The notes under the pieces: generated by a model
The model's database searches: none
Told to the model about the DNA's origin: nothing
Seen by the model: only the letters and a program-made list of their open reading frames with translations
Part shown: positions 2,818 through 30,440 of the stretch, one piece after another
Layout of the letters: each line of letters begins with the position of its first letter
Position numbering within the stretch: the first letter of the stretch is position 1
Program-made: the position numbers and the translations under genes
DNA from: Akkermansia muciniphila
Lineage (GTDB): Bacteria; Verrucomicrobiota; Verrucomicrobiia; Verrucomicrobiales; Akkermansiaceae
NCBI GenBank assembly: GCA_945883695.1
Contig: CAMCYK010000040.1
Span: 1-33,566, forward strand
Reading direction: 5' to 3'
Length of the DNA stretch: 33,566 nucleotides

Positions 2818-2819
2818 AA

Positions 2820-3479
2820 TCACCAATCCACGTTCTGACCCCGCGTGTCGACGTGGGTAAAACCGGAATAACGACCGACCCCGCCGCGGAACATGCCGCG
2901 GGAGCGCAGGGTGCGGGCGGTCTGTGCGACCGTCGAGGCATGGACCGGAAACTTGACGTCCACCGCCACGTTCGCCTGGTGCCACGAACCGCTGCGGGCA
3001 CCGGGACAGCGGGCATTGTAGGCCGGACTGCGGTAAGCGGAAATAATTTCCTTCACCGGTTGCTCCAGTTCCAGCGAAACCCGGTCGATCACCATCAAGG
3101 TCGGAACCATTTGGCGCCACAAGGTGCGCGGCGGCAGGGAATTCCAGACCGAGCCACGCTGCTTGGCATGGGCCACGAGCACCTGTTTGACCGTCAAGCG
3201 CTGGAACTTGATGCTGGCGAGATAACCGGCATAAGCCTTGAGATTCGAACCCTGCAGGGCCACCCAATCGGCGGGCAGATCCGAAAAATCGACCGCTCCG
3301 CCTCCGCCGCCGCCGTTGACAAGAACCCGCGGGGTCCTGGGCTTCCGGGAGAACAGCGCCGATGCGGGCAGCGAACTGCCGATCAGGGCCAGGGCACCAG
3401 CCCCGAGCGTGCCAAGGGCACCGCGCCGGGATTGAAATTGAGAGCTGGGGGACTCGGCGGAAGATTGAAAGCAAAGCAT
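2820..3479 (-). CDS. Tat-exported M15-like (DUF882/YcbK-type) peptidase
   Basis: The 219-residue product begins with an N-terminal region containing S-R-R-G-A-L-G (Arg18-Arg19) before a hydrophobic stretch ending near SLPASA, which looks like a twin-arginine or Sec signal. A short Gly run follows. The C-terminal half has the M15/DUF882 layout: AYRSPAYNARC, then SWHQANVAVD (His167, Asp174) and FTHVDTRG (His209, Asp211), the expected zinc ligands and catalytic acid. Family members are periplasmic murein peptidases or peptidase-like wall proteins. The ATG at 3479 was preferred over an upstream TTG (3518), because the twin-arginine segment then lies near the N-terminus. The gene is convergent with the ABC permease and divergent from the LptF-like gene. 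Peptidoglycan as substrate is inferred from the family. Confidence 0.8.
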   Translation of the reverse strand: MLCFQSSAESPSSQFQSRRGALGTLGAGALALIGSSLPASALFSRKPRTPRVLVNGGGGGGAVDFSDLPADWVALQGSNLKAYAGYLASIKFQRLTVKQVLVAHAKQRGSVWNSLPPRTLWRQMVPTLMVIDRVSLELEQPVKEIISAYRSPAYNARCPGARSGSWHQANVAVDVKFPVHASTVAQTARTLRSRGMFRGGVGRYSGFTHVDTRGQNVDW

Positions 3480-3723
3480 GTCGTGAGCGTATGGCTGGTT
3501 GGGATGGCACGTGAGCAAGCTCCGTGCCGCCGTGATTGATGTTCTCTCCGCCGGGTCTCCCCGAACGAATTGCAGACGAGAAAAGCAGCCGACCCGGACC
3601 CCGCAAGGATTTTCTGCCGCATTCGCTAACCGTTAGAAAGTGGCGCCTTCAAGCCTCGGGTCTCAAGCCCCGGCCCTCAGGTCTCTCTCGACAGCGCCCC
3701 CGCCGCCGACCAAAGTCCTCAAA

Positions 3724-4842
3724 ATGATGCGTCTCTCCGACCGCTACATCGGCCGCCAAGTCCTTGTCGGAACGGTGTTCGCGATTCTCCTGCTCAGCAC
3801 CATCCTGATCATGGGCAGCCTGTTCCAGAAGATCCGGCCGCTGTTGGTGGACTTCGGCGCGCCGCCCTCGATCATCGGGGAGTTCCTGCTCAGCATCATC
3901 CCGTTCTCGCTGATCTACACCATCCCCTGGGCCTTCCTCTCCGCCGTGCTGCTGGTCTTCGGCCGGCTCTCGTCCGACCACGAGCTCACCGGCTTCAGGG
4001 TCGCCGGAATCAGCCTGTCCCGGCTCGCCGCTCCGGTTTTCGTCCTAGGTGCCGCCCTTTCCGCCTTGTGCCTTTGGCTCAATATCGAGGTCGCCCCGAG
4101 GTCCAACCGCGGAGCCGACGAGATCGCCCTGCGGGCCTTCTTCAAGGACCCCCGCAGCATGCTCAGCGCCGCCGCCGAACAGGACGGGCTGGAACGCCTC
4201 GAAGACAGCTTGAAGGGAGTCCGCGCCTACATCGAGAAATCCGACGAATCGAAGATGGAGGGACTTCACCTCTTCAAGATCCACGAACGCGACAAGCCCG
4301 ACGCCCCCGACATCTATGTCCATGCGATGCGCGCGGAAGCGGTCGTCGACGAGGCCAAGCGGGAGTTCCGCTTCCACCTCTACGATGCCCTGTTCGAAAC
4401 CACCGACAAGGATGGCAAGCCGCAGTTCGTCCAATCGGGCGAAGCGGTGCCGATGGTCCTGCCCTTCGAAATCGCCTTGCGCAAAGAACGCCCCGCCTCG
4501 AAGACCAACCGGGAACTCCGCGAGTTCATCGAGGTGCTCCGTGAGCGGGGCCCGCGCGCGAGGACCTACATTCCGAACTACGAGGCGGAGATCCAGCGCC
4601 GCTACGCCTCGTCGGTGGCGTGCTTCGCCTTCGCCTTCATCGGCATTCCGCTCGGCATCAAAACCCGCCGCAAGGACACTTCCACCGGCTTGATCCTCGC
4701 CCTGCTGATCGGCGCCGCCTATTTCGTCTGCGGCATGTTGGGCGGCAGCACCCAGCGCGGCGTGATGATCGCCGCCTGGGCCCCGAATGTCATCTGCGTG
4801 ATCCTCGGTCTTTTCTTGCTCCGTCGGGCGCGCTTCCGCTGA
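3724..4842 (+). CDS. LptF/LptG (YjgP/YjgQ) family permease
   Basis: The 372-residue protein has the architecture of the LPS-export permeases. The N-terminus (RLSDRYIGRQVL) leads into three transmembrane helices (about residues 15-120) with FGRLSSDHELTGFRVAGIS, the conserved cytoplasmic coupling loop of this family. A periplasmic beta-jellyroll-like domain (about 130-275) follows. A second set of three helices carries the PLGIKTRRKDTSTG loop. LptF and LptG form the inner-membrane dimer that, with the LptB ATPase, extracts lipopolysaccharide for delivery to LptC. Only one permease gene is present here, so the partner and LptB must be elsewhere. Tandem ATGs at 3724 and 3727 are both plausible. 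The frame extends upstream to an ATG at 3640, but that adds a Pro/Ser-rich stretch unlike the family. SulP follows after 11 bp, suggesting co-transcription. Confidence 0.88.
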   Translation: MMRLSDRYIGRQVLVGTVFAILLLSTILIMGSLFQKIRPLLVDFGAPPSIIGEFLLSIIPFSLIYTIPWAFLSAVLLVFGRLSSDHELTGFRVAGISLSRLAAPVFVLGAALSALCLWLNIEVAPRSNRGADEIALRAFFKDPRSMLSAAAEQDGLERLEDSLKGVRAYIEKSDESKMEGLHLFKIHERDKPDAPDIYVHAMRAEAVVDEAKREFRFHLYDALFETTDKDGKPQFVQSGEAVPMVLPFEIALRKERPASKTNRELREFIEVLRERGPRARTYIPNYEAEIQRRYASSVACFAFAFIGIPLGIKTRRKDTSTGLILALLIGAAYFVCGMLGGSTQRGVMIAAWAPNVICVILGLFLLRRARFR

Positions 4843-17053: not shown

Positions 17054-17285
17054 GGCAGGCAAGACAGGGCACCGGAGATAAAGCCCTCACTCGGTGGCTC
17101 CGGTGGGGATCGCCCCGCCTGCCGGCGGATACCGACGTCAATCCTTAACCGTTGATTTTCCGGGTCAAACATACTTTCCGCTCGCAACTGGCGGATCATT
17201 CTGGCAGAAGGTCGTTTCACCCGTCGCGCCGCCCCCACCTCCGCGCGTCCCCCCCGCGGAGCGGTTACCCTTACAACCCGCCGCC

Positions 17286-20200
17286 ATGCACCGTTCCTTT
17301 TGTACTGCCACGCTCATCGCTTGCCTACTCGCCCCGGCCCGGGCGGACCTCGACCTTGACACCAATGGTTTGGGAGATGTCTGGGAAGCCAAGTTCAAAC
17401 CCGCGATACTTGTCCCGTCCGAAGACAAAGATGGTGACGGGAGGACCAACCGGGAGGAGTTCGAGGCCGGAACCGATCCTTTACGGGCCGACGATGTCTT
17501 TGCCATTCGCGAGTTGAAGCCAACGGCCGGCGACCTCGAACTGAAGTGGTCATCCCAAGCCGGGAAACGCTACCAACTTCAAACGACCGAAACCCCGGGG
17601 GTCCCCGCGTCGTGGCAGAACATCCCGGGCCAGCATGCCGGGAACGATGCGGATCTCACGGTTTCCACTCCCCGACCCGCCGCGGGCACGGCCTTTTTCC
17701 GGGTGATCGCGGCCGATGTCGACAGCGATGGCGACGGGCTGACCGATTGGGAGGAAATCCAAACTGGATCCAATCCCCTCGGCGGTGCCGACCTGGCGAA
17801 ACTCACCGCCGCGCTGCAAAGCGAATCGGTGGTATCGATCTCGGCGGTCGACGCCGAAGCCACCGAACCCGTCAACAACCCCGCCGCCGACACCGGCAGC
17901 TTCCGGGTGCGCCGCAGCGGCGGGATCAGCCGGATCACCGTCAACCTCGCGGCGAACGGCAGTGCCAGCGCCAGCGATCACAGCGGGCTGCCGACCACCG
18001 TGACGCTTCCCCTGTCGGTCAACGAGGTGTTGATTCCACTGACGCCGCTGGCCGACCTCGCGACCGAGTCCGACGAACTCGCGGTTCTGTCGGTATCACC
18101 GGGTGCCGGTTATACCGTGGCCTCGTCCACCATCGCGGGCGTGCTGATCAAGGACCTGGTGCAGCCGAACGGGACCGGCCTCCGGGGCGAATACTGGGAT
18201 CACCCGAACAACACCCTCAACGCCCCTTACTTTGGCGGAGCCGCCCCGCTTCCGCCGACGCTGACCCGGATTGATCCCCAGGTGAATTTCAACAACGCCG
18301 TGGTCGCTTGGCCGGGTGTCGCGCCGATCACGGTCGGCACCGCCTCGGATTACTTCTCCACCCGCTGGACTGGCGAGGTCCTGCCGGAGTTCTCCCAAAC
18401 CTACACGATCTACGCGGATGGAAACGAAACCCTCCGCCTCAAGATCAACGGTCAGGTCGTGATCAACAACTGGCCCGTCGTTACCGACCTTCCGGAAACC
18501 CCCGAGAATGAAAACTGGCCGAACCGTCTCAACGGGGTTTCCGGCGAGGCCTCCGCGGTCTTCAATTTCGAAGCCGGCAAGCGCTACTCCGTGCTGCTGG
18601 AGCATTACAACAACAGCGGAGGTCACCGGGCGATCCTCTCCTGGCAATCGACCAGCCAGGCGAAACAGGTCATCCCCCAGACCCGCCTCTTCCCGAACAC
18701 CCCGCCGCGAATCCATGCCGCCACGGAGGCCTTGACCTTTGTCGGCGGACCGGTCTTCAGCTACCCGCTCCTCACCAGCGGATCCCCGACTTCCTTCTCG
18801 GCCTTGAATCTGCCTCCTGATTTCCAGATCAACCCGTCCACCGGCGAGATTACCGGCGCGCCCTACACCCCGGGCGAATGGCGGGTGATGGTGACCGCCA
18901 CCAACGCGTATGGCTCCGGTTCCGCCTTCCTCGACATCACCATTCTCCAGACCAGCGGCGGGATCACCCGCGAGTTGTGGACCGGCGTCGCGGGTTCCGG
19001 TCTCGCCCAGATTCCTTTGAGCCAGCCACCGGCCCCGAGTTCCCTGCTTTCGTCGCTGGAAGCGCCGGCCGATGCCGGCGATGACTACGGGGTGCGCCTC
19101 CGCGGCTTCCTGACCGCGCCGGAGTCCGGGGACTACCGGTTCTACCTGCGGGCTGACGAGGCGGCGGCCTTCTACCTTTCCAACGACGCGGAACCCTTGA
19201 ATTCCTGGAAGCGGGCCGAACTGACCGCACCGGTCGCTTCCACCGATTGGGCCACCGCCGCCCCGTCGCCCCTCCTTCGCCTGGAGGCCGGCAAACGCTA
19301 CTACCTCGAGGTCTTGCACAAGGAAGGCAGCGGCAGCGATCACCTTGCCATCGGCTGGCTGAAGCCCTCCGAAATGGCCAAGCCCGCACCGGTCATCGCC
19401 ACCGTGCCGGGACACGTGCTGACCCGCTTTGAAGATGTCACCCTGGGAAGCTGGCCGGTCTTCACGCCGCCCGCACCAGCGCCGGACTGGACAACGGATC
19501 CCGCCGCTTCCAACACCCAGGCCAAAGCCGCCGCCCGCTTCCTCCAACAGGCGACCTTCGGCGCCAGCCCGGCGGACATCTCCGCCCTTCAGGCAATGCC
19601 TTCTTTCGAGGCCTGGATCGATGCCGAGTTGCTGAAGCCCGCGACGGACCACCTGCCCTACGTCGAGCAATTCCGAACCGTCACCAATCCGAACAGCCCG
19701 ACCTACCCCGAGACCCTCTCCTATAACTCCTGGTGGAAGCACTCGATCCAGTCCGACGACCAACTCCGCCAGCGGGTCGCCTTTGCGCTCAGCCAGATCA
19801 TGGTGGTCTCCGGAAACGTTCCGCTGGATGACCGCGCGGACGCGGTCTCGGACTACTACGACATGCTGCTGGCGAATGCTTTCGGCAATGTCCGCGACCT
19901 CCTCGAGAACGTCACGCTGCACCCGGCGATGGGCCGCTACCTCGACATGCTGCGCAACGACAAGCCCAGCCTGACCGCCGGACGCATCCCGAACGAGAAC
20001 TATGCCCGCGAAATCCTCCAGTTGTTCTCGCTCGGACTTTACCGCATGAACCCGGACGGTTCCCAGATGCTCAACTCAAAAGGCGAGCTGATCCCCGTGT
20101 ATGACCAGGAGGCCATCATCGGCTACGCCCATGTCTTCACCGGCTGGGACTACTTCTACACCGGAAACTATCGCACCACCCTGGGTGCCGGATCCAACTG

Positions 20201-21980
20201 GATCGATCCCATGCGCGAAGTCCCCGCCCGCCACTACACCGGCAGGAAGCGCCTGCTCAACAACGTCGTCCTCCCTGGCATCCCGTTGCTCAATGGCGCG
20301 CCGCTCAATCCTTACGGCGATCACAGCGGATCGACCATCGCCGACAATCCCGAGTTCCAGGCGCTGCCCTCGCTCGAACTGGATGCCGTCCATGACCAGA
20401 TCTTCCAGCACCCCAACATCGGGCCATTCCTTTGCCACCAGTTGATCCAGCGCCTGGTCACCTCGCATCCGAGCCCGGGCTACATCTACCGTGTCGTCAG
20501 CAAGTTCAACGACAACGGCTCCGGCGTCCGTGGCGACTTGAAGGCCGTCATCAAGGCCATCCTCCTGGACTACGAGGCACGCTCCACCGTCGTCGCGAAC
20601 ACCGAAGAAAGCTTCGGCAAGCAGCGCGAACCGGTCCTCCGCGTGACCCAGCTCGCCCGCGCCTTCCGGCCGGCCAACAGCTTCGCAGGCACTTACACCC
20701 AGGACGGCGGCCTGATCAACGTCAACACGGGGGCCTTCAGCCACCGCATGAACAACAACCAGAAGGCGCTCCTCGGCTTCTCGGGGGCTGGAGTCCAATC
20801 CCACGATAGCGGTGACTACACGGTGATCAACACCCCACCACCGACCACGAACACCTACACCGTCCGCACCCGCGATGTCATGCGTGGAACTTGGTCGATC
20901 CCTGCAGACTCGACGGTGATGACGGTAACGACAGCCGCCAACCACGGCTCCGCGAACGGACAGTCGGCCTATCTCCGATTCCGCACCGGCAACAGCCCCG
21001 TGACCGATGGCGTCTATCCGCTCGCCCTCCTCGTCACTGACGGTGTCACCAGTACCACCAAGTTCACCTTCGCCGTCACTGCCGACCCCCTCGCCCGCAG
21101 CGGGGAGATCGACGCCGCCTGGCTCCGCGGAAGCTACAGCCAGAGCTACAACAGCACGACTGGGGTTACAGTCCTGACCGTGACCTGCGGCACCCTGCCC
21201 GGCCAGGTGGTGGGTAACAAGCTGACCATGAGCTTCATTTCGTCCAACACCTTGTCAACGCCTCCGAATGGTGTCTACACGATCGCGACGATCAGCGCCA
21301 CGGAACCCCGGCGCTTCACCCTCACCCCGGACAGCGGGACTCAATCCTTGCTCAACAGCAGGGCCGGCACCTTCAACGCCGCACCCCACACTCCAATCCT
21401 CGACCGCGGTGGTGATGTCACCTCGGGCTATTCGGACTGGAACGTCGGAAACACCGACACCGTCCTCGGCCAGACCCCGCTGGGCGCCCCCACGGTCTTC
21501 AACTTCTTCGAGCCGACCTACAAGTTCCCCGGGGAGCTCGCGGATGCCGGCCTGACCACGCCCGAATTCCAGATCAGCTCCGACACGAATGTCGTTCGCC
21601 AGGCGAATTTCATGTTTGGAGGAATCTACAGCAGCTCGTCCAGCTTGACCTCGGGAGGATACTCCAACGGCTTCGGCAGCTTCCGTGATGGCGCACACGA
21701 CATCATGATGGATTTCTCACCCTGGATGGGACCCCGGACCACCGGCACCGACTACCGGACGAACACCGTCAATCTCCGCGACTTGATCCGGGAATTCTCG
21801 AAACTGCTCATGGCCGGCCAGATGAGCCAGGCCATGGAGGATCAAATCTACAATCACGTCACCAACACCGCGAACGTGGCGTACAACGCCACGACTTCGA
21901 CCGACTCCGAAAGACGGAACCGTATCCGCGGCATCCTTTACTTCATCGCCGTTTCCCCCGAGCACGCGATCCAACGCTGA
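17286..21980 (+). CDS. DUF1800 protein with EF-hand-like motifs, two PA14-like domains and an internal beta insert
   Basis: The 1564-residue protein has a signal peptide (FCTATLIACLLAPARA). Asp-rich TSP3/EF-hand-like motifs (about 21-60 and 144-165) come first, then a Calx-beta-like segment (about 180-290). PA14 domain 1 (about 295-460; GLRGEYWDH, TYTIYADGNETLRLKING) precedes a putative-Ig segment (about 480-555; SGSPTSFSALNLPPDF). PA14 domain 2 (about 557-715) is followed by a DUF1800 domain from about 740 (AARFLQQATFGAS; GRIPNENYAREILQLFSLGL; TPLGAPTVFNFFEPTYKFPG). The DUF1800 domain is interrupted at about 1177-1370 by a beta-rich insert. DUF1800 has no proven activity but is usually encoded with DUF1501. 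The ATG at 17286 starts the signal peptide. It heads a three-gene operon with 14- and 13-bp gaps. Confidence 0.9.
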   Translation: MHRSFCTATLIACLLAPARADLDLDTNGLGDVWEAKFKPAILVPSEDKDGDGRTNREEFEAGTDPLRADDVFAIRELKPTAGDLELKWSSQAGKRYQLQTTETPGVPASWQNIPGQHAGNDADLTVSTPRPAAGTAFFRVIAADVDSDGDGLTDWEEIQTGSNPLGGADLAKLTAALQSESVVSISAVDAEATEPVNNPAADTGSFRVRRSGGISRITVNLAANGSASASDHSGLPTTVTLPLSVNEVLIPLTPLADLATESDELAVLSVSPGAGYTVASSTIAGVLIKDLVQPNGTGLRGEYWDHPNNTLNAPYFGGAAPLPPTLTRIDPQVNFNNAVVAWPGVAPITVGTASDYFSTRWTGEVLPEFSQTYTIYADGNETLRLKINGQVVINNWPVVTDLPETPENENWPNRLNGVSGEASAVFNFEAGKRYSVLLEHYNNSGGHRAILSWQSTSQAKQVIPQTRLFPNTPPRIHAATEALTFVGGPVFSYPLLTSGSPTSFSALNLPPDFQINPSTGEITGAPYTPGEWRVMVTATNAYGSGSAFLDITILQTSGGITRELWTGVAGSGLAQIPLSQPPAPSSLLSSLEAPADAGDDYGVRLRGFLTAPESGDYRFYLRADEAAAFYLSNDAEPLNSWKRAELTAPVASTDWATAAPSPLLRLEAGKRYYLEVLHKEGSGSDHLAIGWLKPSEMAKPAPVIATVPGHVLTRFEDVTLGSWPVFTPPAPAPDWTTDPAASNTQAKAAARFLQQATFGASPADISALQAMPSFEAWIDAELLKPATDHLPYVEQFRTVTNPNSPTYPETLSYNSWWKHSIQSDDQLRQRVAFALSQIMVVSGNVPLDDRADAVSDYYDMLLANAFGNVRDLLENVTLHPAMGRYLDMLRNDKPSLTAGRIPNENYAREILQLFSLGLYRMNPDGSQMLNSKGELIPVYDQEAIIGYAHVFTGWDYFYTGNYRTTLGAGSNWIDPMREVPARHYTGRKRLLNNVVLPGIPLLNGAPLNPYGDHSGSTIADNPEFQALPSLELDAVHDQIFQHPNIGPFLCHQLIQRLVTSHPSPGYIYRVVSKFNDNGSGVRGDLKAVIKAILLDYEARSTVVANTEESFGKQREPVLRVTQLARAFRPANSFAGTYTQDGGLINVNTGAFSHRMNNNQKALLGFSGAGVQSHDSGDYTVINTPPPTTNTYTVRTRDVMRGTWSIPADSTVMTVTTAANHGSANGQSAYLRFRTGNSPVTDGVYPLALLVTDGVTSTTKFTFAVTADPLARSGEIDAAWLRGSYSQSYNSTTGVTVLTVTCGTLPGQVVGNKLTMSFISSNTLSTPPNGVYTIATISATEPRRFTLTPDSGTQSLLNSRAGTFNAAPHTPILDRGGDVTSGYSDWNVGNTDTVLGQTPLGAPTVFNFFEPTYKFPGELADAGLTTPEFQISSDTNVVRQANFMFGGIYSSSSSLTSGGYSNGFGSFRDGAHDIMMDFSPWMGPRTTGTDYRTNTVNLRDLIREFSKLLMAGQMSQAMEDQIYNHVTNTANVAYNATTSTDSERRNRIRGILYFIAVSPEHAIQR

Positions 21981-21994
21981 ACCCTACCAAAGCC

Positions 21995-23533
21995 ATGTCC
22001 AACCTCGACCAGGACCGCGCCCGCCTCCTCCGCACCCGCCGCAGCTTCTTCCGCACCGTCGGCGGAGCCGCACTGGGATCCGCCGCCATCTCCAGCGCTC
22101 TGCGGGATTTCCGGCTGATCAATTCCGCCCTCGCCCAAGGTCCCGGTGCTGGCGGCTTCAACGACTATAAGGCGCTCGTCTGCATCTTCCTCAACGGCGG
22201 CAACGACAGCAACAACCTGATCGTGCCGCGCGGCGCCACCGCCCATGCGAACTACGCTGCCATCCGCGGGAACCTGACCATCCCGGAATCCGCCCTGGTT
22301 CCCATCACGCCCGACAACAACGACGGCAATGAATACGGTTTCCATCCGCTCTGCACGGAAATGGCGAACCTCTTCCAGGCCGGGAAACTGGCCACGGTCT
22401 TCAATGTCGGCCCGCTGCTCTTCCCCACCACCCGGGTGCAGTACCAGAAAAAGACCATCGCCCTGCCGCCCCAGCTCTTCTCCCACTCCGACCAGGTCAC
22501 CCATTGGCAGACCTCCCTGCCCGACCAACTGCCGCGCTCCGGATGGGGCGGCCGCATCGCCGACCACCTGCATGCTTGGCAGGACAACCCGCTCATGGAC
22601 CCGGCTGATCGTGCGAAGATCGCCCTCTGCACCAGCATCGCCGGATCCAATACGTTCGAGGTCGGAAACAGCATCCAGCAGTTCCACGTTTCCACCAGCG
22701 GTGCCGTTGTACTCTCTGGCGCCGCCACCGGCTCCGCCCGCGAGAATGTCGTCAAAAGCATCGCCAACCTGCAGGGCAACAACCTCCAGGCCAAGGCCTT
22801 CGGCGACGTGATCGACAACGCCATCGCCGCCGGTGCCTTTCTGAACGACGCGATCGGTGAAACAGCCCCCCCCGTGTCTACAAACCCAAACTCGTTCTGG
22901 AACACGCCGTTCCCGAGCGGCTCGCTCGGTGACCAGTTGAGAATGGTGGCCCGAATCATCGCAGGACGGAAGGAACTCAAGATCAAGCGCCAGATCTTCT
23001 TCGTCACCGTGGGCGGATACGATACCCACACGTCGCAGATGGGTGCCAACAACGATGCCTTGACCGGCTCCCACGCCAACCTCCTTGGAACCCTCAGCAA
23101 GGCCATCGGCGCCTTTCAAGCCGCTATTGAACAAATCTCCGCTCATCCGGTCCTCGGCGACGGCCCGGCCACCAACACCAAGGTGGCCAACAACGTGGTC
23201 GGATTCACCATCTCCGACTTCGGCCGCACTTTCCCGACGAACAGTCAGGGCAGCGACCACGGCTGGGGCGGCCATCATGTTGTCTTCGGCGGCAATGGCA
23301 ATCCCACCACCGGTGCCGTCATCGGCAAGAAAACCTACGGCCGCTTCCCGGTCCACCAGATCAACGGGCCCGACGACACCAGCACCGGCCGCTGGATCCC
23401 GTCGACCAGCGTCGACGAATACAGCGCCACACTGGCGAAATGGTTCGGCGTGTCCCCCACCTACATGCCTGACGTCTTCCCGAATCTCGATCGCTTCGCA
23501 CAGCCCGACATCGGATTCATGAGGTCATCATAA
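21995..23533 (+). CDS. DUF1501 family protein, Tat-exported
   Basis: The 512-residue protein has a twin-arginine signal TRRSFFR (Arg15-Arg16) followed by a hydrophobic stretch to SALAQG. It shows the DUF1501 family motifs: YKALVCIFLNGGNDSNNLIVP near the N-terminus, VGGYDTHTSQ in the middle, and SDFGRTFPTNSQGSDHGWGG toward the C-terminus. The family is distantly related to sulfatase/alkaline-phosphatase-fold proteins, but its catalytic role is not established. The Tat signal suggests export in folded form, possibly with a metal bound. It lies 14 bp after the DUF1800 gene and 13 bp before the pseudopilin-tail gene. This strongly suggests that the three are co-transcribed and work together at the cell envelope. 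Confidence 0.93.
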   Translation: MSNLDQDRARLLRTRRSFFRTVGGAALGSAAISSALRDFRLINSALAQGPGAGGFNDYKALVCIFLNGGNDSNNLIVPRGATAHANYAAIRGNLTIPESALVPITPDNNDGNEYGFHPLCTEMANLFQAGKLATVFNVGPLLFPTTRVQYQKKTIALPPQLFSHSDQVTHWQTSLPDQLPRSGWGGRIADHLHAWQDNPLMDPADRAKIALCTSIAGSNTFEVGNSIQQFHVSTSGAVVLSGAATGSARENVVKSIANLQGNNLQAKAFGDVIDNAIAAGAFLNDAIGETAPPVSTNPNSFWNTPFPSGSLGDQLRMVARIIAGRKELKIKRQIFFVTVGGYDTHTSQMGANNDALTGSHANLLGTLSKAIGAFQAAIEQISAHPVLGDGPATNTKVANNVVGFTISDFGRTFPTNSQGSDHGWGGHHVVFGGNGNPTTGAVIGKKTYGRFPVHQINGPDDTSTGRWIPSTSVDEYSATLAKWFGVSPTYMPDVFPNLDRFAQPDIGFMRSS

Positions 23534-24278: not shown

Positions 24279-27200
24279 ATGAAAACCCGTCTCCTCGCGA
24301 TTGCGCTGTTGTTGGCCACGGTGCCTCACTTGCTCGCCGCCGACCCCGTCCCGCCGCCCTTGCTGGAGATCTCCTCCGGCCTCCCCGGCCAGCAGGTGCG
24401 CCTTGAATGGCCCGCCGAAGCAGGCCTCCGCTATCTCGTTGAGAAGTCCACTTCGCTTGCCCCGGCCGATGGCACCGCGGCCGGCCCTTGGGCCCCGGTC
24501 GCCCTGGTCGAGGCCACTTCCTCGGAAGCCGTCTGGCTCGATCCCGAGCCGACGACCACCCGCGCTTTCTATCGCATCTCCGTCCCCGGGGCGGAAATAT
24601 TCTCACTCTCCCCGCCGCTGCTTTCCACCACCGGCGGCACCCTCCTCGTCACCGGCCAGCGACTTCCGGCCGGCAGCTCGCTCACGCTGGAAATCACCGG
24701 ACTCGGGCAAGTCTCGGCACCGCTCGAACTCCTTGCGCCCGGCCATTGGCGGGCCGTGTTCTCGTTCACGCCACCCCTTAGCGCCGGAGTGCATATCACG
24801 AGCGTCACCTGCACCGACGGCAGCGGTCTCGCCCTCGCCACCGCCGGCCAAGTCATCACCGTCACCGAATCCGGACGCGCCACGGACGCGCCGTCATCCG
24901 TCCCGCCCGCCGCCCCGGTGATCCCGACACTCGACAGCTCCAACCCCATCCCGGGCATCGGCATCGTGGTGAAAAGAAACAAGGGCTTGAGCCGCATCGC
25001 TTCCGGCGGGGGTGACGATTGCGACGACCGGGACGAATTCCCCCTCTCGGGTCTCATGCCCGCGGCGAACTTCCTCGCCATCAAGACCAAAGGCACCGGG
25101 GCAGACGCAAACCGCGTCTTCTCTCAAGGCCCAGACGACGACGGCGACGGCGACGACAGCCTCTCGCTGCCGTCCGCCGCCCGGATGGCCATCAAAACCA
25201 AGGGCACCGGCGCCGCCCACGGCAGGATTTCACCCGCCGCCTCCAGCCTCCCCGGCGAAGTCGCCTTCCACACCTGCCCGATCGAGGTCGTCTCCCCCGC
25301 CGGTCCCTCGCTGGCCTGGGTCTGCACCTATCGCTCGATGGTCCCCATCTCCTCGGGCCATGGTCCCGGCTGGGATTTCTCTTACAATATCTCGATCACG
25401 CCGATCCCCGCCAACTCCGGCAATCAGGCCCCGCGCCTGCTGATCCGCGATGGAGGCGGACGTGCCGACGTCTTCCACCGCCAGCCCGACGGCAGCTACC
25501 GTTGCGACGGGCTGTTCCGCGAAGGCCGTTTCACCGGTAATACTTTCACCCTCACCTTTGCCGACACCGGCACCTGGAATTTCCTGCCGCTCGATGGCTC
25601 CCCCGCATCCGGTAAGATCTCGACCATCACCAGCCGCCACGGATTGTCCCTCACTTGCATTTACGATACCTCCGGCCTGCTCAGCCAGGTCAGCGATTCC
25701 TCCGGCGGCCGACTCTCCGTCAGATGGTCCCCCACCGGGCAAATCTCCAGCGTTTCCGACCAAACCGGCCGCAGTGTCCAGTTCACGGCCTTCGGCGGCG
25801 AACCGGGCGGCAACCCTGGCGACCTGAAATCCATCTCCAGTCCGCGGCTTCCCGGCATCCCGTCCCTTGTCGGTGATCTCTCCTTCACCTACTCCAGCGG
25901 CTCCGCCGACCCCCGGCTCAACCACAACCTGCTTTCGATCACCGCCGGGGCCAACCGCCTGGTCGAGGCCTACACCTATTCGGGCAGCAGCAACCCCACC
26001 GACATCGCCTACGACACCTGCACCGGCAACAACCGCCATCGCATCGCCGGTGAAGCAGGCCCCGACCACCGCACTCACTTCGAGACCCTGCCTTCCGGCG
26101 ACTACCTGATGAGCGAGCTCGATGAAGTCGGCCGCCTCACCCACACCACCTTCGACCGCCTCCACCGCGCCCGATCCGTCCGCCAGTTCACCGGTTTCGC
26201 CCCTCCCGGCGTGCTTCCCGTCGCCGCCCCGCTCAGCGGGAAAATCCGCCCCGGCGACCCGGATTTCTTCGAAACCACCTTCGCCTGGAATGCCGATCAC
26301 CTCTGCACCCGCGTCACCCACCCGGACGGCACCAAGGAAGCCATCACCCACGACCGCGAACTTCGCCCCGGCTGCCCCGTCACCGAGCGCGGGAATCCCC
26401 GCATCTTCACCCTCACCTCACCGCTCGGCGAAGTCCGCAGCGTGTCGTGCGACTACCTGCCCCGCTTCGGCACCACCGAATCCGCCCGCCCCGGCAATCC
26501 GATCAAAGGCATGACCGTGAAAGGCGGCAGAAACCCGGGCGGCGACATTGTTCACCAGAACCGCCCCGGCAATCCGATCAAAGGCATGATCATCAAAGGC
26601 GGCAGAAACCCGGGCGGCGACGTCGTTGCCGTGGTCCGGTCGTCCGGCAACGTCGACCAGGACTGCGACGGCATTTCGGAGGATGCCGCTCTGCTCTCGA
26701 AGAAGGGTTATGACTACTATCAGGCGCAATCCGATCTCAAATCCTCCGCCACCTGCCTCCTCGCCCCGCCCGCACCGTCGTTCCTTGATCCCGTGGACGA
26801 CGATTGCGATGGCGATGACCCCTCCGCGATCGTTGCCTTCCTGAGCAAGAAGGGCTACGACTACTATCAGACAAGGTCCGGCTGCAGCTTCGTCACCCGC
26901 GTTCTCACCTCGCACGGCCAGACCTTCGCGTGGTCGCACAACGAGCGTGGAGACATCGTCAGCCGCAGCAGCCCGATCCCCGGCCAAGGCACGCTTTTCC
27001 AATATCTGCCCGACGGCCGTTGCCGCTCCGTGACCGAACTCAATGGCAATGGAGTCCCCATGGAAGTGACCATCGCCCACGGCCCCGGCGGCATCAGCGG
27101 CGTCACCCGCCAGCGCGGCGGCGCCCCCTCTCTCACCACCACCTTCGTTCGCGACGATCTCAACCGGATCACGCACATCTCCGATCCGCTCTCCCGGCAG

Positions 27201-30200
27201 TGGATCCTCAGCTACAGCCCGGAGGGCCTCTGCACCCAGGTCAGTTCCCCGCCCGTACCCGCGCCGATCGTCCTGAAACTCGCCTACGACCCCGCCGGCG
27301 AGCTCGCCCGCTGCGACCTCGACCACCTCGACGCCGCCGGCGCACCCGTCACGGCAAACCCGGCCTACTCCACCTTCATCGTCCGCAACACCCGCGGCCG
27401 CCTGCTCCGGATCGCTCGGGAAGAACGCCCGGTCGATGGCTCCTCCACCCTCGATCCCGCCACCCTCGGCATCGAGAATTTCAGCGCCATCGATATCACC
27501 TACGACGCCTCCGGGGCCTGCATCGCCCTCACCACCCCCGCCGCCTGCCGCGGCCAGACGACCGACGCCGTCACTTCCTTCGTCCTCGACGAGCGCCGCC
27601 TGCTCCATCGCCGTGTCGACGGCGGACTCGGAAATCCCGACGCGGTCACCACCGAGCATGACTACAGTCCGCGCGGGGCCCTCACCCGCATCGCCACCAT
27701 CGCGTCCGGGGTTCCCAGCCCCCCAACGCTCTACGCTTACGATGGCTTCAATCGACTGGCATCGGTCACCGATCCGATGGGCAATCAAAGCACCTTCGAG
27801 TATCTTCAGGACGGCTCGGTCATCACCGAGCATTTCGGCGAGCTGATCGACGCACCCGGCGATAGCAACAACATCCTGCTCGCCCGCAGCACCGTCCGCA
27901 CCCGCGGCGGAAGGGAGCAGTGCGACGATAGGGATCCGGTCCACAGCGGCGCGCTCTTCACCCGCCACTACGCCCACGTCGACACCCAGATGGTCGAGCG
28001 TTTCACTCCCGGCTCCAGCGCCCCCGCCGTCCTTGAAACCACCACCGTCCACCGCTCCCCCGCCGGACTGGTCACCCACATCGTTTGCAACGGTGACACC
28101 CGGGGCAGCTACGAATACGACGATCTCTTCCGCCTCGTCGGCATCTCCGATGGTTCCTGCACCCTGTCCTTCACCCTCGACGGAAACGACCGCCTGGTGG
28201 TCTGCGGCCGGACCGACCATTTCCGCGCCGCCGGAATTCCCGACAAGGCCTTCACCACCACCTGCGTCCGCGACGCCCTCGGCCGTGTCACCGCCTGCAC
28301 CGACGGCGCCGGCAATACGACCCTCGCCACCTTCGACTCCCTCGGCCGGACCACCTCCCTCACCCGGCCCGGCCGCGCCACGGTCCACCACGCGTACGAC
28401 GGCACCTCCGCCACCGGAGATCCCGTGAGCGTGCTGGTCACCTGCGACGTTTCCGGCACCGGTACCGCCGAAGTTCTTTCCAGCTCGCTCGTCCGCAACG
28501 GCGAACTCCGCCGCACCACCGACTCCTACGGTCATAGTACCCTCTACACCTACGACGCCCTCCATCGCCTCACCCGCTGCGACTTGCCGGACGGCACCTT
28601 TTCCACCACCCGCTACGACAGCCGCGGTTTCGAACGGCAGGCCGTGCTGCTGGACCGGCGGGTTCACCAGCTCGGGCACGACGCCCTCGGCCGGATCACC
28701 ACCTCCACCTGGAGCGACCTCCCCGCGGGCGTCCTCCCGGTGGGCCCTTCCACCTTTGTCCACGACGGGCTCGGCCGCCTTGTCAGCACCACCCAGGACG
28801 GCTCCACCCTGTCCTTCACCTATGATTCCTGCGGCAACCCGCTGACCGAAACGTCGAATATTCTCAACGTCCAGCGCACCGTCCAGCGCAGCTTCAGCCA
28901 CCGCGGCCGCACCGGCATCACCTATCCCGACGGCCGCCGCTTCGTGGAAAGCCGGGGTGCCCTGGGCGAGTTGCTTGCCATCTCCGCCGTCGATCCCGTC
29001 GGCGCGCCCGTGCAACCGCCGGTCGTCGCCTACAGCCACGTCGGCCAGCGCGTCCACACCGCCACCCAGGCCAATGGAACCGTCACCACCCACACCTATC
29101 GCGGCGATGCCGACGTCACCACGGACCATTCCTTCGACAGCTGCATCCGCACCGTCACCCGCGACGCCTCCTCGGCGGTGCTGTCCGATGTCGCCGTCTT
29201 CCGCTCGCCCGACCAGTCGCCGGTCCGCTGCGAATCGCTCTTCAGTTCCGCCGCCGACGGCCCCGGCCGCTTCCAGACCTTCAGCCACGATGCCTTGGGA
29301 CGCCGCCTCTCCTGCCTCACCGAGCGCCGCGAGGTCACCGGCGGCCCCCTGATTGTGGAAGACAATGTCGCCTATACCCTCGACCTCGAAGGCCGCCGCC
29401 AGCTCGCCACCGGCGGCCAGGATCCGGGCCCCTATTCGCAGAACAGCAAGATCCCTCCGGGCGACCAGCAGATGGGCCAGTATTCCACCTGGCCGGGCGG
29501 TGACCTGATTTGGGATGACACCGGCAATCTCAAATCGATCCACCGCGGTTCCGTCATGCAGGTTTCCTCCTATGATGCCGAGGGCCGCTTCGTCGCGTGC
29601 GACAATCCGCTCACCGGCACGCCCGTGTGCAGGGTCACCTACGATGCCCTCGGCCGCACCTCCAGTCTCACCGTTCACCGCGGCGGCGGCCTGCCAGCGG
29701 TCACCACCCGTTTCCTTTACGACGGACTCTTCTGCATTCAGGAACTCACCGATCCCGGCGGCACCGGCCCGCTCGAGCCCGCCCTCACCTTCGTCAGCGC
29801 CGGCGGTCTCAAAGTCTGCATCTCCACCCGCGACGGCAGCCTCTACTACCCGCACTCGTCAGGTGGTTCCCACCGCTACGGAGACGGGGGCGGCGGCGAC
29901 ATCACCTACATCGGCCCCTGCGATGCCAGCTTCACGGCGATGACCGGCTCCAACGGCGCGGTGGTCGAACGCATCGCGTATGACGACGCGTGCAAGCCGG
30001 TCTTCCTCGACGGCAGCGGCCAGCCCACGCCCTCCGGAACCTCCATTGGCCCGCTCCGCTGGATGACCCCGGAAAGCATCTGGGAAGCCGGCTCCGGGCT
30101 CTACCTTTGCCCCGACGGCACCTTCTGCCCGGACTTCGCGTCCGCGGCGTCCTCCCTCATGGGCGGCGGCCACGTCACCGTGCTCAAGGCTGCCGCCAAG

Positions 30201-30440
30201 GGCGAGCCTGCCAGCGGCCAGGCCACCGGCAGACGGTGCCACAGCCCCTTCGGGATTGCCCCGGGTCTTGGAGAAGGCTCCGGCGGCATGGCCACCGGCA
30301 AGCGCACCCACGGCCTCCCCACCGGCCGCCGCGGTCACGTCACCGTCCTCAAGGCCGCCGCCACCGGTGGCGGCGGCGGCAGCAGCGGCTCGAAGGGCGG
30401 GGATCACAACTCCACCCGCTCGAACAAGACCGCCAGTTGA
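24279..30440 (+). CDS. Large secreted RHS/YD-repeat protein with repeated non-YD peptide cassettes
   Basis: The 2053-residue protein has a signal peptide (LLAIALLLATVPHLLAA). A beta domain with LRYLVEKSTSL...FYRIS (about 30-105), common in verrucomicrobial exported proteins, precedes an IPT/TIG-like domain (about 106-200). An RHS N-region (about 335-420; AWVCTYRSM, GHGPGWDFSY) leads into a long YD-repeat shell (to about 1930; for example YDALHRLTRCDLPDGT, YDALGRTSSLTVHR). The core ending is degenerate (LRWMTPESIWEAGSGLYLCPD) and no recognisable toxin follows, only a Gly/Lys/Arg-rich tail. Between YD blocks lie unusual peptides, each present twice: AIKTKGTGA (267, 304), LSKKGYDYYQ (806, 855), CDDRD (248, 1215), GHVTVLKAAA (1964, 2019), and a 25-residue tandem pair at 737-783. 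It converges with tex, 18 bp between stops. Confidence 0.9.
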   Translation: MKTRLLAIALLLATVPHLLAADPVPPPLLEISSGLPGQQVRLEWPAEAGLRYLVEKSTSLAPADGTAAGPWAPVALVEATSSEAVWLDPEPTTTRAFYRISVPGAEIFSLSPPLLSTTGGTLLVTGQRLPAGSSLTLEITGLGQVSAPLELLAPGHWRAVFSFTPPLSAGVHITSVTCTDGSGLALATAGQVITVTESGRATDAPSSVPPAAPVIPTLDSSNPIPGIGIVVKRNKGLSRIASGGGDDCDDRDEFPLSGLMPAANFLAIKTKGTGADANRVFSQGPDDDGDGDDSLSLPSAARMAIKTKGTGAAHGRISPAASSLPGEVAFHTCPIEVVSPAGPSLAWVCTYRSMVPISSGHGPGWDFSYNISITPIPANSGNQAPRLLIRDGGGRADVFHRQPDGSYRCDGLFREGRFTGNTFTLTFADTGTWNFLPLDGSPASGKISTITSRHGLSLTCIYDTSGLLSQVSDSSGGRLSVRWSPTGQISSVSDQTGRSVQFTAFGGEPGGNPGDLKSISSPRLPGIPSLVGDLSFTYSSGSADPRLNHNLLSITAGANRLVEAYTYSGSSNPTDIAYDTCTGNNRHRIAGEAGPDHRTHFETLPSGDYLMSELDEVGRLTHTTFDRLHRARSVRQFTGFAPPGVLPVAAPLSGKIRPGDPDFFETTFAWNADHLCTRVTHPDGTKEAITHDRELRPGCPVTERGNPRIFTLTSPLGEVRSVSCDYLPRFGTTESARPGNPIKGMTVKGGRNPGGDIVHQNRPGNPIKGMIIKGGRNPGGDVVAVVRSSGNVDQDCDGISEDAALLSKKGYDYYQAQSDLKSSATCLLAPPAPSFLDPVDDDCDGDDPSAIVAFLSKKGYDYYQTRSGCSFVTRVLTSHGQTFAWSHNERGDIVSRSSPIPGQGTLFQYLPDGRCRSVTELNGNGVPMEVTIAHGPGGISGVTRQRGGAPSLTTTFVRDDLNRITHISDPLSRQWILSYSPEGLCTQVSSPPVPAPIVLKLAYDPAGELARCDLDHLDAAGAPVTANPAYSTFIVRNTRGRLLRIAREERPVDGSSTLDPATLGIENFSAIDITYDASGACIALTTPAACRGQTTDAVTSFVLDERRLLHRRVDGGLGNPDAVTTEHDYSPRGALTRIATIASGVPSPPTLYAYDGFNRLASVTDPMGNQSTFEYLQDGSVITEHFGELIDAPGDSNNILLARSTVRTRGGREQCDDRDPVHSGALFTRHYAHVDTQMVERFTPGSSAPAVLETTTVHRSPAGLVTHIVCNGDTRGSYEYDDLFRLVGISDGSCTLSFTLDGNDRLVVCGRTDHFRAAGIPDKAFTTTCVRDALGRVTACTDGAGNTTLATFDSLGRTTSLTRPGRATVHHAYDGTSATGDPVSVLVTCDVSGTGTAEVLSSSLVRNGELRRTTDSYGHSTLYTYDALHRLTRCDLPDGTFSTTRYDSRGFERQAVLLDRRVHQLGHDALGRITTSTWSDLPAGVLPVGPSTFVHDGLGRLVSTTQDGSTLSFTYDSCGNPLTETSNILNVQRTVQRSFSHRGRTGITYPDGRRFVESRGALGELLAISAVDPVGAPVQPPVVAYSHVGQRVHTATQANGTVTTHTYRGDADVTTDHSFDSCIRTVTRDASSAVLSDVAVFRSPDQSPVRCESLFSSAADGPGRFQTFSHDALGRRLSCLTERREVTGGPLIVEDNVAYTLDLEGRRQLATGGQDPGPYSQNSKIPPGDQQMGQYSTWPGGDLIWDDTGNLKSIHRGSVMQVSSYDAEGRFVACDNPLTGTPVCRVTYDALGRTSSLTVHRGGGLPAVTTRFLYDGLFCIQELTDPGGTGPLEPALTFVSAGGLKVCISTRDGSLYYPHSSGGSHRYGDGGGGDITYIGPCDASFTAMTGSNGAVVERIAYDDACKPVFLDGSGQPTPSGTSIGPLRWMTPESIWEAGSGLYLCPDGTFCPDFASAASSLMGGGHVTVLKAAAKGEPASGQATGRRCHSPFGIAPGLGEGSGGMATGKRTHGLPTGRRGHVTVLKAAATGGGGGSSGSKGGDHNSTRSNKTAS
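25077..25214 (+). repeat. Duplicated peptide AIKTKGTGA inside the RHS gene
   Basis: Two identical nine-residue peptides are encoded at 25077-25103 and 25188-25214. Four codons differ between the copies and all four changes are synonymous (aag/aaa, aaa/aag, ggg/ggc, gca/gcc). Between them lies an acidic DDDGDGDD stretch. Confidence 0.85.
26486..26627 (+). repeat. 75-bp tandem duplication in the RHS gene
   Basis: Two units start exactly 75 bp apart at 26486 and 26561 and match over about 67 bp with five mismatches, changing three amino acids. Each encodes RPGNPIKGM-x-x-KGGRNPGGD-x-V. The period is a multiple of three, so the frame is kept. The near-identity suggests a recent duplication. Confidence 0.9.
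26694..26870 (+). repeat. Duplicated peptide LSKKGYDYYQ inside the RHS gene
   Basis: Identical ten-residue peptides are encoded at 26694-26723 and 26841-26870, with four codon differences, all synonymous. Each is preceded by a Cys/Asp motif, DQDCDG at residue 793 and DDDCDG at residue 840. Confidence 0.85.
30168..30362 (+). repeat. Duplicated C-terminal motif GHVTVLKAAA in the RHS gene
   Basis: The ten-residue peptide is encoded at about 30168-30197 and 30333-30362 with three synonymous codon differences. Between the copies are three short TG(R/K)R motifs (ATGRRCH, ATGKRTHG, PTGRRGH). This lies beyond the degenerate RHS core, where other RHS proteins carry variable tips. Confidence 0.8.

Follow-up and report, generated by a model that had tools for sequence, protein, structure and literature searches.

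Polymorphic toxin systems include large RHS trafficking proteins, and RHS/YD shells are known from the Rhs proteins of type VI secretion systems, from TcC and from teneurin. Here, we describe a protein of this family encoded by Akkermansia muciniphila, in a 33,566-nucleotide stretch of DNA analyzed at its full length (contig CAMCYK010000040.1 of assembly GCA_945883695.1, hereafter the window), which bears a series of short repeated peptides in non-YD insertions and in its C-terminal tail (Table 1). Membership of the RHS/YD family is clear: the protein matches RHS_repeat with an E value of 1e-29, and the same model is found in 15/15 RHS proteins of the set defined below. Likewise, DUF6531 is listed for 15/15 of these proteins (E up to 1) and TEN_YD-shell for 7/15, and Rhs relatives were found in the PDB. 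However, the window protein differs from known RHS/YD shells in its exported-looking N-terminus, its peptide-bearing insertions, and its tail of modules. Judged by eye alone, the N-terminus resembles a Sec signal peptide, and the protein is probably exported. Pfam and NCBIfam list no domain of any kind in its tail at E up to 1, toxin domains included, although the tail may carry a toxin of an undescribed type. In contrast to polymorphic toxin systems (PMC3482391), the variable part here consists of short internal modules rather than of a C-terminal toxin cassette.

The repeats in the window protein are real. As the first-pass annotation had pointed out, four peptides are each present twice with codon changes that are all silent: AIKTKGTGA (4/9 codons differ), LSKKGYDYYQ (4/10), CDDRD (3/5), and DCDG (2/4). 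The protein contains seven pairs of repeated 9-mers and two repeated 10-mers, as opposed to none in 200 shuffles, and 23 repeated 6-mers (shuffle mean 0.235, maximum 3). Repeated 5-mer pairs number 41, including those within longer repeats, versus a shuffle mean of 3.7 and a maximum of 11. The AIKTKGTGA and LSKKGYDYYQ repeats are therefore far above chance, whereas the 5-mer CDDRD, taken by itself, does not stand out, and the 4-mer DCDG is even weaker. We then compared the codon identity of the copies with that expected from random draws on the codon usage of the same gene. Identity is 5/9 for AIKTKGTGA (5.5 expected) and 6/8 for KKGYDYYQ (4.5 expected), while all nine compared codons are identical in the tandem KGGRNPGGD pair. 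The latter pair is a recent duplicate because its DNA is 93% identical. It had been overlooked, as had the GHVTVLKAAA repeat in the tail. The proposal of old copies rather than recent duplication is supported for the two long pairs, which look old with their peptide preserved, and fails for KGGRNPGGD.

These peptides belong to a wider collection of modules. Using the 187 N-terminal residues as query, we found the gene in 13/77 relative genomes, that of the window included. The RHS set, to which L007 was added (L and G numbers denote loci and genomes), comprises 15 distinct proteins with the window protein counted, L005, L006, and L008 being the same proteins as L025, L026, and L037 and each counted once. 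Their cores are 35-48% identical to the window protein. At least one module, such as KKGYDYYQAQSD, AINTKGAGANVGR, or RRRVEVLKSNKQGDPDANR, is present in 15/15 of them, in non-YD insertions or in the tail, as counted with patterns that were hand-written after reading the sequences and are thus descriptive, as are the other pattern-based motif and codon counts given below; L036 has just one. The insertion sites are common to the set, while the modules within them differ, and module presence is patchy along a core tree of 1632 columns. Recurrence in the same order, which had been predicted, consequently holds in part only. The peptide DHNSTRSNKT is also present in the tail of the window protein. 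Across genome samples that contain only part of the gene-carrying genomes, IKTKGTGA occurs in 1/387 genomes of the phylum, the window's own, and KGYDYYQ in 2/387, both times within the RHS family. A 119-residue module query matched 8/209 genomes of the order, seven through the RHS gene and one weakly, the matching stretch being interrupted by a stop codon. Matches in L004 and G512 were dismissed as chance-like.

The modules of the set recur not only in the 15 RHS proteins but also in unrelated giant, probably exported proteins of two distant lineages, Verrucomicrobiota on the one hand and a UBP7 record with its relatives on the other. In 15 chosen genomes, they are found in the giant frames L071 (an FG-GAP protein), L072 (from a single-contig genome), L074, L075, and L010 (the giant of a UBP7 record); L192 and L193 are two more giants, found among 40 relatives of the L010 genome. 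Counting ungapped segments common with the RHS set at a score of at least 52, with low-complexity ones dropped, we obtained 165 for L010, 14 for L071, 25 for L072, 21 for L074, and 14 for L075, part of the weaker segments being YD, FG-GAP, or glycine-rich likeness rather than modules. The same count for five other window proteins gave 4, 1, 1, 1, and 0, these controls being 497-1628 residues long and the giants 893-3935. At a score of at least 55, L193 shares 58 segments and L192 shares 19, whereas three shuffled versions of L193 gave 3, 1, and 1. The peptide RRRVEVLKSNKQGDPDANR is the same at 19/19 residues in L193 and in L006/L031, and its copies share 10-12/19 codons (8.8 expected). As for the giants themselves, L193 (L193:3521-14026) is a frame of 3502 residues in which LLLPAVQKxREAAA-like copies are numerous; it also contains three pieces of EF-Tu, out of order, together with several RHS-family modules, and is by eye the richest carrier. 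L072 (L072:2240-8254) and L075 (L075:2275-8409) form a second giant family with VSNLGSSGQDGVSIDL-like repeated stretches and Hcp-like pieces, which gave long matches in G319 and G435 and a short one in G392 among 15 genomes searched. L071 (L071:1758-4436) carries the RRRVEVLKSNKTGDPYANR module and ALIWSPRSN among its FG-GAP repeats.

Some of the modules can be traced to known proteins. EF-Tu fragments scoring 67-99 are present in 5/20 proteins scanned, while none of 160 shuffles scored above 50 and none of 20 comparisons with reversed EF-Tu above 46. L027 and L028 have three stretches each, out of order, which we take to be from domain 3, the switch-I region, and domain 2; L005 has two, L010 has one, and the single stretch of L007 is presumably from the P-loop. 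EF-Tu pieces in relatives were also recovered by Pfam, NCBIfam, and PDB search. The remaining 15/20 proteins have no piece above the controls, the best being TIGHVDHGSS in L072 (score 48). In L027, L028, and L193, the EF-Tu-type module LxKEEGGRHTPFHNKYRPSA departs identically from the EF-Tu of G390, so the modules seem to be derived from one another rather than freshly captured. The likeness to EF-Tu is thus one of peptides (P-loop, switch-I-region, domain 2, and domain 3, by presumed region). In contrast to EF-Tu, the pieces are ~15-29 residues long, out of order, and devoid of a GTPase domain: a complete EF-Tu (GTPase plus domains 2-3) was not found in these proteins, the relatives having short fragments only and the window protein nothing beyond chance.

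The second recognizable source is Hcp. The module SPRDAASGLATGKRQHSP of L032 matches the PRDPASGLATGRRQHKP stretch of an ordinary Hcp in G178, with variants in G389, G392, and G395. Among the Hcp loci read, only those of G389 and G392 have the stretch in both Hcp and the RHS module; it is absent from the Hcp loci of G307, G319, and the window's genome (where both loci lack any SGLATGRRQH-like stretch), and in G178 and G395 it is present in Hcp and absent from the RHS protein. In contrast to Hcp/TssD tube proteins, these are pieces embedded in giants, which match the 129-position Hcp domain (PF05638) in part only, and the window protein has no Pfam match to it. At the level of sequence, the copying of EF-Tu in relatives is clear, and so is the resemblance to Hcp, although its tie to the Hcp proteins of the carriers themselves is weaker. 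The window's genome has two adjacent Hcp-like genes (G000:C105:10644-11544; L079 and L094) whose N-termini are signal-peptide-like by eye, and similar pairs are seen in several relatives.

In the 15 RHS proteins, Pfam also found GTP_EFTU_D3 in 2/15 (best 1.1e-4) and Integrin_b_cyt in 2/15 (best 0.08), and among the giants a tyrosine-kinase stretch in L010 (4.3e-5) and Hc1 in L072 (0.0013). Likenesses to integrin, VWD, RCC1, the LDL receptor, pilin, DUF1559, and type IX sorting signals, noted by eye or weak, were given no weight. Queries made from the peptides returned nothing useful from the PDB (one ankyrin match, E 1.1), no match from plasmids, and one weak helicase match from phages (E 0.3); 0/3 viral stretches were confirmed. 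Three RHS proteins match one nameless PHROGs family and L032 two more weak ones, while L072 matches none. An exact-string search of 5.39 million papers for six window peptides gave no occurrence, and no description of such modules appeared among the entries listed by concept searches of the literature. The suggestion that no described family combines these peptides therefore holds within the literature and database listings searched.

How the modules have been maintained can be judged from their codons. Within genes, codon identity between copies is near random in L029, L031, L033, and L034, slightly above random in L032 and the window gene, and clearly above in L010, L006, and L008. For instance, the LKSNKxGDPxAN copies of L031 have 4/11, 7/11, and 7/12 identical codons (5.4-6.0 expected), and the four ASGLATGxRQH copies of L032 have 3-7 of 10-11 (4.5-5.0 expected). 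Some copies are therefore old, their peptide having been retained, and others are younger. Between related species, L027 and L028 share 68/96 module codons (71%), strongly above the 45% expected at random and compared with 52% for the core. L030, L032, and L034 form three mutually dependent pairs, which share 45/75, 28/44, and 44/70 (60, 64, and 63%), moderately above random (50, 48, and 48%), with cores at 58, 61, and 54%. Module codons are above random in 5/6 related pairs, which argues that modules have been handed down among closer relatives and speaks against both independent insertion and an artefact. Module and core amino acid identities in the six pairs are 90/67, 85/66, 68/64, 67/62, 74/57, and 71/44, higher for the module in all, although inflated because module patterns had to match both genes. 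In related species, modules are thus passed on by descent, and their conservation is no lower than that of the core.

Together, these findings are best accounted for if the RHS shell is a scaffold on which selection maintains short peptides for recognition or mimicry, a reading to which we give a probability of roughly 0.4. The product of the gene is a large, probably exported YD/RHS shell protein, and its short linear modules sit in insertions A, B, and C and in tail D. The shell may display them extracellularly for recognition or mimicry; each module would engage a partner, and copy number could provide avidity. Selection would act on the peptide, with module content turning over between species.

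Several observations weigh against this interpretation. Patchy content could be a sign that modules are dispensable. The AIKTKGTGA and KKGYDYYQ peptides of the window match no known family, the named peptides being without an identified source, and the window's RHYAHVD is not above chance as an EF-Tu piece (score 42, with 41 or more in 30/160 shuffles). The AlphaFold2 model of residues 190-1000, built from five sequences, is of low confidence throughout, with a mean predicted local distance difference test score (pLDDT) of 43.6, so that exposure of the insertions is putative. Nor are copies uniformly saturated: in 89 within-gene pairs from 14 pattern families, which are not independent, 389/610 codons are identical versus 280.8 expected, and in 37/89 pairs the excess over expectation is larger than 1.5 codons. 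When L010 is left out, 215/372 codons are identical versus 178.7 expected, and 14/53 pairs lie more than 1.5 above. Of the related pairs, L029/L033 modules share 21/42 codons (50%), barely above the 44% random value (core 52%), and window/L031 modules 16/39 (41%), below the 50% random value (core 53%). The inflated amino acid identity of modules also counts here.

The debris of gene fragments caught by illegitimate recombination, tolerated outside the shell as in a landing zone and functionless, is a rather unlikely explanation of the insertions. Recognizable out-of-order EF-Tu fragments and Hcp-like stretches would fit, as would patchy presence along the tree and poorly modeled insertions. 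However, debris would not readily explain why some long peptides are identical at near-random codon identity, why modules exceed core conservation in all six related pairs (selection bias noted), why 19 residues are identical between far lineages, or why L027, L028, and L193 depart alike from G390 EF-Tu. Less probable still is a role of the modules in docking, loading, or sorting, as signals read by contractile injection systems or by some other secretion machinery. L010 partly matches Hcp, gp19, VgrG-type, and PAAR-like models, and weak Hcp matches exist in L074 (E 0.23) and L075 (E 0.051). Three genomes have SGLATG[KR]R in their RHS proteins and a fourth has it in L072; each of the four also has ordinary Hcp genes, while the module occurs in 0/5 genomes without Hcp. 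In addition, G392 has a GRRM variant in both Hcp and its RHS module. Yet 5/15 carrier genomes are without any Hcp match, the L010 genome has Hcp only within the giant, and the stretch is in Hcp only in G389 and G392 among the carriers read. Similarly, an eCIS_core stretch (eCIS, extracellular contractile injection system) is found in 5/15 RHS proteins (best 0.0013), but the matches span 14-21 of 79 positions, a short HExxH-like end of the domain, only that of G389 is over the cut-off, and the five genomes have no other match above it. The window protein itself gave no eCIS_core (PF13699) match at E up to 1, and eCIS loading of this protein is not supported by such fragments. Moreover, PMC11297309 puts forward the hypothesis that eCIS toxins should lack a canonical Sec signal, unlike the N-terminus here, which is Sec-like by eye.

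A processing operon is not supported either. No frame family is common to more than 6/14 RHS neighborhoods, some of which were available on one side only; one such family is an rRNA methylase, and another, without Pfam match, looks like shadow frames. No processing enzyme was found among eight annotated neighborhood frames. The secretion or processing code proposed in the first-pass annotation is thus unproven, and its MopE-type metal-binding theme is not supported. That MopE or calcium-loop-type linkers stabilize the shell exterior, with the basic peptides as spacers, is likewise improbable. CDDxD-type motifs occur in 6/20 and DxDCDG-type motifs in 3/20 scanned proteins, all RHS, and the DxDCDG motif is like that of Cu-binding MopE (PF11617). 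However, these are isolated motifs below the curated cut-off: the matches are weak and confined to 2/15 RHS proteins (best 0.047), the window protein has no listed match up to an E value of 1, and EF-Tu pieces and KKGYDYYQ are left unexplained. About as improbable is a variable surface, in which recombination diversifies the insertions and so permits escape from immunity or phages, with the peptide identity arising as a side effect of module exchange. Module sets that differ between species while occupying fixed sites, the recent tandem duplicate in the window, and many within-gene copies above random in common codons would agree with exchange. DNA identity is expected from exchange, yet several copies, in L029, L031, and L034, match in their codons no more often than random draws, and most of the far-lineage copies that were listed come close to this level. 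Finally, chimeric or otherwise unnatural sequence records are a very remote explanation. Identical peptides with random-like codons, as seen in some genes and between far lineages, are what back-translated inserts would show, but the long open frames come from many separate assemblies, including single-contig G319 and L006, which has no metagenome-assembled-genome label. Furthermore, module codons are above random in 5/6 related pairs and in within-gene copies overall, and the insertions occupy homologous sites.

As for structure, both peptide-bearing regions of the model have a pLDDT of ~19-29, while the last YD block is near 80. The model contains no YD strands in these regions and agrees with insertions lying outside the YD strands, at low confidence and without proving disorder; a fold search was dropped because the model is too weak. 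Upstream of the RHS gene (17094-23533), the window encodes a DUF1800 protein that bears PA14 domains and, after it, a DUF1501 protein; a Tex gene is also among the neighbors. A 1145-residue open frame antisense to the RHS gene (minus strand, 26418-29855) is most likely a GC-rich shadow frame.

Table 1. Positions of the RHS gene and of its insertions, peptides, and modules in the window
Feature	Position	Strand	Remarks
RHS/YD-repeat protein	24279..30440	+	2053 aa; PF05593 RHS_repeat E 1e-29, TIGR01643 E 2.9e-21
Insertion site A, non-YD, peptide-bearing	24921..25244 (~residues 215-322)	+	Other modules between same anchors in relatives; pLDDT ~20, shallow model
NPIPGIGIVVKRN module	24942..24980	+	PGxGxVVK-type peptide; 8/15 RHS proteins, window counted
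GDDCDDRDE acidic Cys peptide	25011..25037	+	CDDRD copy 1 at 25020-25034
AIKTKGTGA copy 1	25077..25103	+	
DDDGDGDD acidic peptide	25134..25157	+	
AIKTKGTGA copy 2	25188..25214	+	Directly before xPGEV; such a peptide also there in L028, L029, L030, L033, L034
Insertion site B	26481..26888 (~residues 735-870)	+	
Tandem RPGNPIKGM..KGGRNPGGD pair	26486..26627	+	93% DNA identity
DQDCDG	26655..26672	+	MopE-like by eye; DCDG at 26661-26672
LSKKGYDYYQ copy 1	26694..26723	+	
DDDCDGDDPS	26796..26825	+	MopE-like by eye; DCDG at 26802-26813
LSKKGYDYYQ copy 2	26841..26870	+	
CDDRD copy 2, insertion site C	27921..27935	+	5-mer, by itself within chance
RHYAHVD	27963..27983	+	Exact 7-mer of host EF-Tu; score within chance
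GHVTVLKAAA copy 1, C-terminal tail (site D)	30168..30197	+	
ATGRR, ATGKR, PTGRR pieces	30222..30332	+	Loosely like SGLATGRRQH stretch of some Hcp proteins
GHVTVLKAAA copy 2	30333..30362	+	
DHNSTRSNKTAS terminal module	30402..30437	+	DHNSSRSNKTSS-like in L006, L030, L032, L034

A broader proposal, which we regard as somewhat unlikely, is that bacteria from two or more phyla have a common lexicon of short peptide modules, which are mounted on unrelated giant exported proteins and often preserved letter for letter while codons drift. Part of this lexicon would be copied from EF-Tu and contractile injection proteins, at their most conserved stretches, so that the giants would serve as molecular mimicry or decoy arrays. 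If modules are selected recognition or mimicry elements, they would represent a new layer of protein evolution, in which peptide words are re-used by non-homologous giants of distant bacteria. Module profiles would then be a search key for unannotated giant proteins, and the family would offer a testable case of bacterial EF-Tu/Hcp mimicry.

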